From contig CAIZFE010000086.1 in assembly GCA_903932145.1 (NCBI GenBank), forward strand, positions 372,001-436,000: 64,000 bases of DNA. The letters run 5' to 3'. The translations under genes were made by a program, and so were the position numbers. The notes below the pieces were generated by a model, which worked only from the letters and a program-made list of their open reading frames with translations, did no database searches and was not told the DNA's origin. Shown here in pieces: positions 15,395 to 24,065 of the stretch (the stretch's first letter is position 1; the number at the start of each line of letters is the position of its first letter). Origin of the DNA: an uncultured Rhodopila sp. Lineage in GTDB: Bacteria > Pseudomonadota > Alphaproteobacteria > Acetobacterales > Acetobacteraceae.

Positions 15395-15797
15395 GGCGAT
15401 TGCTACTTTCTGTTGGATTTGGAACGGTCGGCGTCGTCTCGGTTGCGGGTATTCGTGGTTAATAATGCGGCGTGCGCATTTGAGCGCCTGGTATCCATCG
15501 TCTGCTTTGGCCGCTACCAGGTTTCAAGCCAGGATGGAGCGGACAGTATCCGATGTCTTTGTGTATCGAAAATCAGCAATCCAGCTTCCCGTTCGCTTTC
15601 ACACCCGTATAGGCTGACGACAGCGCAAAATAGAAACGGCGTGCCGGCGTACGAGCCTGGTCCGGCCGCATGATCTGCTTACCCAAAAAGCGCGTTTTGG
15701 TTGTCACCGCGATGCGCGACTTTGTACACAAGCAAATTGGTGTGCTGTCGATGAACATGATTTCGCCCTGTCGAAATTCTGGAACGAGATTGGGCAC
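15395..15797 (-). pseudogene. flbT: flbT remnant with a frameshift and an internal stop
   Basis: FlbT is the flagellin mRNA repressor usually found beside flaF. From a GTG at 15797 (AAGGGGAA upstream) the frame reads a FlbT N-terminal half including SRIAV, TRFLGKQIM and TPARRFYFALSSAYTG, then stops at 15575-15573. A one-base shift near 15594-15603 restores FlbT-like sequence: TSDTVRSILA, a TGA at 15526-15524, then NLVAAKADDGYQALKCARRI and INHE. At least one frameshift and one nonsense codon therefore separate conserved halves. Two sequencing errors are the alternative. The remnant sits between flagellin and flaF. Confidence 0.8.
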
Positions 15798-16697: not shown

Positions 16698-17016
16698 AGT
16701 GTATTACCTTTCGTGTCCGGATTTGTGCGCCTATTTTTTGCAAGATCGAGGGGCATCATGACCGACAAAGGTTAACGGTTTATGAAGAAAAGAATTTATT
16801 TTTGGGCCAGGGGGAACTTTATGAGGGAAAGCCGCCCGGTCCTGATGGATCGGTCCAGACGGTTTCTGTTCTTGTTAGATGTTTTGCATTTTCCCGGTGA
16901 TCGTCCGCGCCCCAGGCCCAACGATCTTCGTTGCTGCCAGCCTGACCCGACGCCGAATGACATTTCGAGCAAGTATGGCAGCGTGGGTCATCCACTGGGG
17001 ACGGGTCTGATCGCTG
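16698..17016. other. AT-rich leader upstream of flagellin; no gene seen
   Basis: This 319-base stretch separates flagellin from the end of the ABC importer operon, both on the minus strand. The 100 bases nearest flagellin are AT-rich and should hold its promoter and 5' leader. No confident sigma-28 or sigma-54 promoter could be assigned. No convincing reading frame is present. Confidence 0.5.
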
Positions 17017-22817: not shown

Positions 22818-24065
22818 ATGTCGGAAATCGCCGTAAGTCCCTGGTCTGTTGCGGATTTCTTCTCGTGCGGAGGTGGCACGAGTGCCGGATTCGCGCGGCG
22901 TCCGGAGTTCCGCATCGTCGGCGCCGTCGATCTTGAACTGGCCAAGCCATCCGGCGGCGAGGGCGCGTCGGACTGTAACGCCACCTACCAGGCGAACCAC
23001 GCGGTTACCCCGATGAACCGTGACATGATGATTTTTGCGCCCGGGGAATTCGCCCGGGCGGCCGGGATCAAGCCCGGCGACCTCAATGTGATGATCTCGT
23101 GTGCCCCGTGCACCCATCTGTCGCGCGCCAATCCGAATAATCATCTCGAAGACCGGCCGGAAAATTCGCTGATTGGCCGCAGCGGCGAGTTCGTTACGCA
23201 TCTGCTGCCAGAGATCTTCTTTATGGAGAACGCCCGTGAGTTGATCATGGGCAACTACAAACATCACCATACCGCGCTGGTGAAGCAGCTAACGCAGGCC
23301 GGTTATCAGGTCCGCTCGGAGATCCATTGTCTTGACCGCTTCGGCCTGCCCCAGGTGCGGGAGCGCGCGCTTGTGGTGGCCTCCCGGATTGGCGCGGTGC
23401 GCACGCTTGAGGATTTGTGGGAAGGATGGTCGATCCGTCCAGAAGCCGTAACGGTTCGCTCGGCCCTGGCACGTCTCGCCGTATGGAAAGCGGACCATAC
23501 CGACGATCTCGAAGGGGATGTTTACCCGGGCATGGGGCCGGCGGTGCTGCAACGGCTGGAGGCAACGCCTCATGACGGGGGCGGCTGGGTCGATGTCGCG
23601 CGTGACGCGACCACACGGGGGCTGCTGACCAGGGATTGCCTGCGTCGCTGGACGTCGGGCGATCTCGGTTCGCATCCGGACGTGTACGGACGCATGGCCT
23701 GGAACAAGCCGGCGCCCACGATCAAGCGGGAGTGTGCCCATATCGGCAACGGCCGCTACGCCCACCCGGAGGAAGACCGGCTTCTGACGGTTCGGGAAAT
23801 GGCGACTTTGCAGGGTTTTCCGTTCGATTACCGCTTTCCGGCGCGGGCGGTTTCGAACCGTTATCGCCACATTGGCGATGCGGTGCCGCCGATCATCGCC
23901 TATCAAATGGCGGCCTTGGCCAAGTGGATGCAAACCGGGGTGCGACCGGAGCCGATGGATTGTGTGATGCCTGATACGGCGCTACGGATTGAAGACATTG
24001 TTCCGTCGTCTCGCGAAGAGATGAGCGGACGCTCGGGGACCAGTGGGCATGCATACAGTCCATAA
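22818..24065 (+). CDS. DNA (cytosine-5) methyltransferase, solitary
   Basis: The 415-residue enzyme shows the C5 motif order: motif I ADFFSCGGGTSAGF (near residue 12), motif IV SCAPCTHLS with the catalytic Cys (near 95), motif VI FMENARELI (near 138), motif VIII VRERALVVASR (near 180), motif IX PAPTIKRE (near 300) and motif X NRYRHIGDAVPPIIAYQMA (near 350). It methylates cytosine in a sequence defined by the region between VIII and IX. No restriction endonuclease is adjacent, so it is an orphan or regulatory enzyme in this window. The ribosome site before the ATG is weak. Two very small membrane-protein genes overlap its 3' end. Confidence 0.92.
   Translation: MSEIAVSPWSVADFFSCGGGTSAGFARRPEFRIVGAVDLELAKPSGGEGASDCNATYQANHAVTPMNRDMMIFAPGEFARAAGIKPGDLNVMISCAPCTHLSRANPNNHLEDRPENSLIGRSGEFVTHLLPEIFFMENARELIMGNYKHHHTALVKQLTQAGYQVRSEIHCLDRFGLPQVRERALVVASRIGAVRTLEDLWEGWSIRPEAVTVRSALARLAVWKADHTDDLEGDVYPGMGPAVLQRLEATPHDGGGWVDVARDATTRGLLTRDCLRRWTSGDLGSHPDVYGRMAWNKPAPTIKRECAHIGNGRYAHPEEDRLLTVREMATLQGFPFDYRFPARAVSNRYRHIGDAVPPIIAYQMAALAKWMQTGVRPEPMDCVMPDTALRIEDIVPSSREEMSGRSGTSGHAYSP

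Follow-up and report, generated by a model that had tools for sequence, protein, structure and literature searches.

An old flbT pseudogene beside a constrained flagellin gene in an Acetobacteraceae genome, and a leader hairpin associated with adjacent flbT

The 5′ UTRs of flagellins are reported to be bound by FlbT (PMC3930126, PMC4347634). In Caulobacter it acts as a repressor up to completion of the hook-basal body, the flagellin FljJ being its partner and FlaF a secretion chaperone (PMC3930126, PMC4347634, PMC8781033, PMC7591256). The Caulobacter protein promotes degradation of its target mRNA, whereas the Brucella FlbT has been proposed to be an activator, and the same source counts the mechanism of FlbT among unsettled questions (PMC4347634). 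The gene was also recovered in a motility-gene screen in Agrobacterium (PMC9812332), and two functional flagellar systems are described in Rhodobacter sphaeroides (PMC7277832). The locus analyzed here resembles the FlbT/FlaF control system of Caulobacter crescentus in its gene families (flagellin, FlbT and FlaF) and in the logic of their neighbourhood. It differs in that its own flbT is dead, and in that the candidate target in its relatives, a hairpin with an A-rich loop (the A-loop hairpin), comes from comparison alone. Like R. sphaeroides, the genome carries two flagellar gene sets, but its native set is incomplete, consisting of a constrained flagellin and basal-body genes with no hook genes found. 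In itself the flbT pseudogene is ordinary; the main interest lies in a constrained flagellin without local FlbT, together with a leader hairpin tied to flbT.

The window, by which we mean the whole 64,000-nucleotide stretch that was analyzed (C86:372001-436000), belongs to a host assembly of 6.66 Mb in 115 contigs. On its minus strand lie, in this order, a flagellin gene (16697-15846), the flbT remnant (15797-15395), flaF (15394-15047) and a TPR-methyltransferase gene (14923-13421). The original prediction described a broken flbT between an intact flagellin and an intact flaF, and this description holds. The flagellin gene (283 aa) contains N- and C-terminal flagellin domains within one open frame, both above Pfam cut-offs (PF00669, 74.3 bits; PF00700, 37.8 bits), and is under purifying selection. 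The flaF gene (115 aa) is likewise open, with a full-length match to PF07309 above cut-off (75.5 bits, profile positions 2-113 of 113); it scores 62 bits against the NCBIfam FlaF model, under that model's cut-off of 91, and is relaxed on the window branch. The TPR-methyltransferase gene, which has matches to PF13489 and TPR profiles, belongs to the same cluster, is syntenic in relatives and is also relaxed on the window branch. An ABC transporter lies upstream of the flagellin locus, and a C-5 cytosine DNA methylase gene (22818-24065; PF00145, 114 bits) is found nearby. Near matches to the flagellin in the GTDB collection come from MAGs labelled Rhodopila, Acetobacteraceae and others, and from Acidisphaera sp. 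S103; its nearest relative, at 90% identity, is that of genome G011 (locus L125).

Two lesions had been reported in flbT, and both are real: the one-base frameshift placed near 15594-15603 is a 1-bp deletion at 15603/15602, and the TGA at 15526-15524 lies in the relatives' frame. That list was incomplete, however, as alignment to intact relatives also reveals a 3-bp deletion at 15684/15683, a 22-bp deletion at 15581/15580, a second 1-bp deletion at 15449/15448, and GTG in place of the ATG start at 15797. The flbT genes of seven relatives translate free of stops. No single open frame of the window flbT spans the Pfam FlbT profile (PF07378); instead there are two pieces in different frames, an N-terminal one matching profile positions 4-64 (37.9 bits, cut-off 27) and a C-terminal one that matches positions 102-121 weakly (12.6 bits, E 0.14). 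The reading frames of flbT and flaF share about 32 bases in close relatives (220-681 and 650-994 in L064; 8974-9435 and 9404-9748 in L121), which suggests a translational coupling of the two genes that would be gone from the window. The half flbT in G011 was considered as a further case of this kind and discarded, since a contig end falls inside the gene; in that genome C52 at its end overlaps C130 at its start by 417 bp at 93.8%.

The age of the loss was assessed from branch-unique changes, assigned by parsimony with seven outgroups for flagellin and flaF and six for the TPR-methyltransferase gene and flbT. For flbT the window branch shows 54 nonsynonymous and 24 synonymous changes, and the G011 branch 6 and 9 (Fisher p 0.04); on the window branch the substitutions fall evenly on the three codon positions (28/23/27). 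By these counts, purifying selection on the window flbT was not detected. Of 63 residues conserved without exception in seven relatives, 23 are altered. Omega before and after the first frameshift is about 0.75 and 0.74 on the window branch and 0.17 and 0.26 on the sister branch; a working truncated N-terminal FlbT peptide is ruled out, as the sequence ahead of the frameshift has drifted no less than what follows it. The neighbouring flagellin has 13 nonsynonymous and 32 synonymous changes on the window branch and 11 and 25 on the G011 branch (Fisher p 1.0), and flbT differs sharply from it on the window branch (Fisher p 2.7e-5). Relaxation is seen in flaF (16/15 on the window branch vs 2/15 on that of G011; Fisher p 0.011) and in the TPR-methyltransferase gene (62/57 vs 28/55; Fisher p 0.014), and the difference between flbT and flaF on the window branch is not significant (Fisher p 0.12). 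That a sequencing or assembly error merely makes flbT look broken has a probability close to nil and was ruled out, given four deletions, a stop, the altered invariant residues and the even codon spread beside a clean flagellin. The original prediction had read the damage as recent inactivation; because of the four deletions, the stop and the near-neutral drift, the data point instead to an old pseudogene, inactivated early on the window branch. As a rough inference, assuming an omega of 1 under drift and of about 0.15-0.2 for a working gene, some two thirds of the branch would have passed without flbT function.

In relatives the gene order is flgE-flgK-flgL-flagellin-flbT-flaF, followed by a TPR-methyltransferase and a TPR-glycosyltransferase gene, with a DUF1217 gene ahead of these two in some relatives (flgL is named from its place and its flagellin-type ends, and the families were checked on the genes of G012). 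The window keeps only the flagellin, the flbT pseudogene, flaF and the TPR-methyltransferase gene of that cluster. The last codons of flgL are probably still visible ahead of the flagellin leader, at 16808-16860 on the minus strand, where a local alignment to G011 scores 23 and the best of 200 shuffles 21. No native flgE or flgK was found across the assembly with the PF06429 profile and a G011 FlgK query. That profile occurs at eight places, assigned from position and frame length to two FlgG, two FlgF, two FlgC, one FlgE and one FlgK, with FlgE, FlgK and FlgG confirmed separately; the sole FlgE and the sole FlgK are both on contig C4, and the C4 gene is the only match to the G011 FlgK query (40-42% identity). 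A main flagellar cluster, which the original prediction had proposed to look for, exists in the genome. Native genes lie on several contigs: fliG and flhA on C47, fliF on C86 and flgG on C101. Omega for fliG, flhA, fliF and flgG is about 0.13, 0.23, 0.23 and 0.07 on the window branch and 0.08, 0.17, 0.21 and 0.05 on the sister branch (5, 6, 3 and 3 outgroups, respectively; FlgF was left out as a wrong-frame ORF). A transposase suspected by eye ahead of fliG on C47 was rejected, as two ORFs there are blank in Pfam. From these comparisons the native basal body and the flagellin look to be in use, without detectable native hook genes or local FlbT. The earlier proposal of an island starting to decay thus fits the loss of flgE-flgK-flgL and flbT and the relaxation of flaF and the TPR-methyltransferase gene, but not the constraint on flagellin and on the native fliF, fliG, flhA and flgG.

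The second flagellar system lies on C4 and includes FlhA, FliG, FliF, FlgD, FliK, FlgE, FlgK, an FlgL-like gene, FlaF and DUF1217, with a flagellin of 451 aa. It also supplies the second flbT whose existence had been raised as a question: an intact gene, encoded between flgK and flgL, whose product scores 93.6 bits and shares about 54-56% identity with native-type FlbT. A system of this kind is also present in G020 (FlhA 88%, FliG 93% and FlbT 85% identical), with flbT in the same place. In both genomes this second-system flbT (L038 9105-9479, equivalent to G000:C4:331104-331478; L167 8621-9004, in G020:C29) sits away from its own flagellin and flaF, which are some 15 kb off in the window genome.

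Where flbT is the next gene after the flagellin, the leader contains a short stem capped by a loop rich in A, usually CCCGC-AAAAA-GCGGG. Under one fixed criterion the A-loop hairpin is present at 73 of the 79 distinct loci where flbT is adjacent (in some of the 73 it is a different hairpin of that stretch that qualifies) and at 11 of the 34 that have no intact flbT next to the flagellin; mononucleotide shuffles, which keep base composition only, satisfied it in 9% and 5% of cases, respectively. Ancestry explains part of this contrast, because most of the 34 loci are distant paralogues. At flagellin identities of 70% or more, the hairpin occurs at 24/24 loci with adjacent flbT and at 1/5 without (L120). 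Pairing between the arms was evaluated by an anchored permutation of arms in a custom script, from which the covariation claim entirely derives. All five pairs form in 45 of 79 own-arm combinations, compared with a permuted mean of 33 (0 of 2000 permutations as high), and at least four pairs form in 72 of 79 (a value reached by 1 of 2000 permutations). Among the double changes are CCCAC/GTGGG, CCTGC/GCAGG, CAGGG/CCCTG, CCCGG/CCGGG and TTCGC/GCGAA. RNAalifold returned no pairs from a plain MAFFT alignment of 59 leaders. The comparison thereby supplies a concrete candidate for the FlbT site, a short A-rich-loop hairpin with covarying arms before flagellin-flbT, and from the co-occurrence of this hairpin with adjacent flbT we infer that FlbT binds it.

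The exact hairpin pattern is not supported as a genome-wide motif, as it has 31 matches in 33 genomes compared with 36 for a reversed control. Nineteen of the 31 lie 0.95-1.15 kb ahead of an intact flbT on the same strand, the position that the flagellin leader occupies. Of the 19, at least 13 were confirmed on leader sequences and the others are from position only. The window genome has no match to the exact pattern. The flg-Rhizobiales RNA motif sits before flagellar genes. It is a candidate structured alphaproteobacterial RNA with stem-loops (RF01736; PMC2864571, PMC3765529). When all Rfam families, RF01736 included, were scanned as covariance models over 11 loci (45,686 bases), there was no match up to E 0.5, and a known Rfam family was therefore rejected as the identity of the hairpin in these loci. 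In the mainly open-access literature that was searched, no element of this sort was encountered for Acetobacteraceae.

Close flagellins that lack an adjacent flbT occur naturally in the window, at L120 and L123 (both in one genome), at L122 and in G021; in the last four the flagellin is 75-83% identical to that of the window and is followed by flaF with no flbT between. No flbT match was obtained anywhere in G021, which is rated 99% complete (flagellin-flaF locus L187, L282, G021:C2), and none was found in the genome of L120, taken to be G019, which is rated 86% complete. In the L122 genome a single flbT is located away from this locus, between flgK and flgL like the C4 copy; two more distant loci, L142 and L143, also have no adjacent flbT and one elsewhere in the genome. 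In G005 (L279, C36) and G017 (L280, C335), native-type flgK-flgL genes have no flagellin after them; there was no flbT match in either genome, and the sole Flagellin_N match is an flgL-type gene.

Fold energies were compared among these leaders. With adjacent flbT, all 22 leaders of flagellins at least 72% identical fall between -4.9 and -11.1 kcal/mol. The five without have -0.1 (window), -0.8 (L122), -3.6 (L123), -5.0 (L120) and -6.7 kcal/mol (G021, its segment chosen by hand), so that two of the five, L120 and G021, lie within the normal range. The G021 leader has retained its arms (1 of 11 positions altered) and lost the A-loop (5 of 5 altered, CGGTT instead). In the window the remnant at 16726-16746 on the minus strand has kept the A-run of the loop and has 6 of 11 arm positions altered vs 17 of 66 elsewhere in the leader, an excess that is not significant (p 0.076). 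The window hairpin seems to have decayed alongside the inactivated flbT.

Based on these results we lean, at slightly better than even confidence, towards a long-inactive flbT pseudogene in what is left of a native flagellin cluster, whose flagellin is in use and freed of FlbT control in a Rhodopila-like genome with a second system. The A-loop hairpin would then be the place where FlbT acts on flagellin mRNA in Acetobacteraceae relatives, and the window flagellin would have lost FlbT control through both the regulator (flbT) and the target (the hairpin). It would now be produced independently of FlbT and may assemble on the hook of the second system. This reading is tempered by L120 and G021, whose leaders fold normally despite having no flbT alongside, by the arm changes that fall short of significance and by the blank RNAalifold result. 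A good deal more doubtful is the combined reading in which the hairpin is the RNA element read by FlbT in the Acetobacteraceae, the window is a natural double mutant, and its flagellin, under normal selection, has escaped FlbT and outlived its own hook genes in a mosaic flagellum that uses those of the second system. As first suggested, flagellin production could plausibly be uncoupled from assembly, but no direction can be assigned to this, because FlbT promotes mRNA degradation in Caulobacter and is proposed to activate in Brucella (PMC4347634) and because an intact second-system FlbT is present.

That intact FlbT is also what argues against production independent of FlbT, as it could act in trans. 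The C4 protein would then control the window flagellin, the redundant local copy would have decayed and flagellin would still be coupled to assembly. The intact C4 flbT agrees with such control, as does the L122 genome, in which a flagellin-flaF pair without flbT likewise coexists with one flbT between flgK and flgL; yet the window leader hairpin no longer folds, C4 FlbT shares only about 54-56% of its residues with the native type, and G021 has flagellin-flaF with no flbT found anywhere. We regard trans control as rather unlikely. Alternatively, the whole native system may be dying after displacement by the second, and its apparent constraint may mean that too little time has elapsed. While the lost flgE-flgK-flgL and flbT and the relaxed flaF and TPR-methyltransferase genes are what a dying system would leave, flbT has drifted over much of the branch and flagellin (13/32), fliF, fliG, flhA and flgG show no comparable relaxation, which makes this explanation improbable as well.

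Two further structures were observed in flagellin leaders. Just upstream of the A-loop hairpin, many leaders contain another inverted repeat, whose arms vary strongly around a CAnnAT core (alignment A1; examples at L212:327-396, L224:337-406 and L226:388-457). A different leader hairpin, GGTCCCGG-ACGA-CCGGGGCC, is common to flagellin genes of distant genera without adjacent flbT (L254, L255, L257, L264, L265, L266 and L269).
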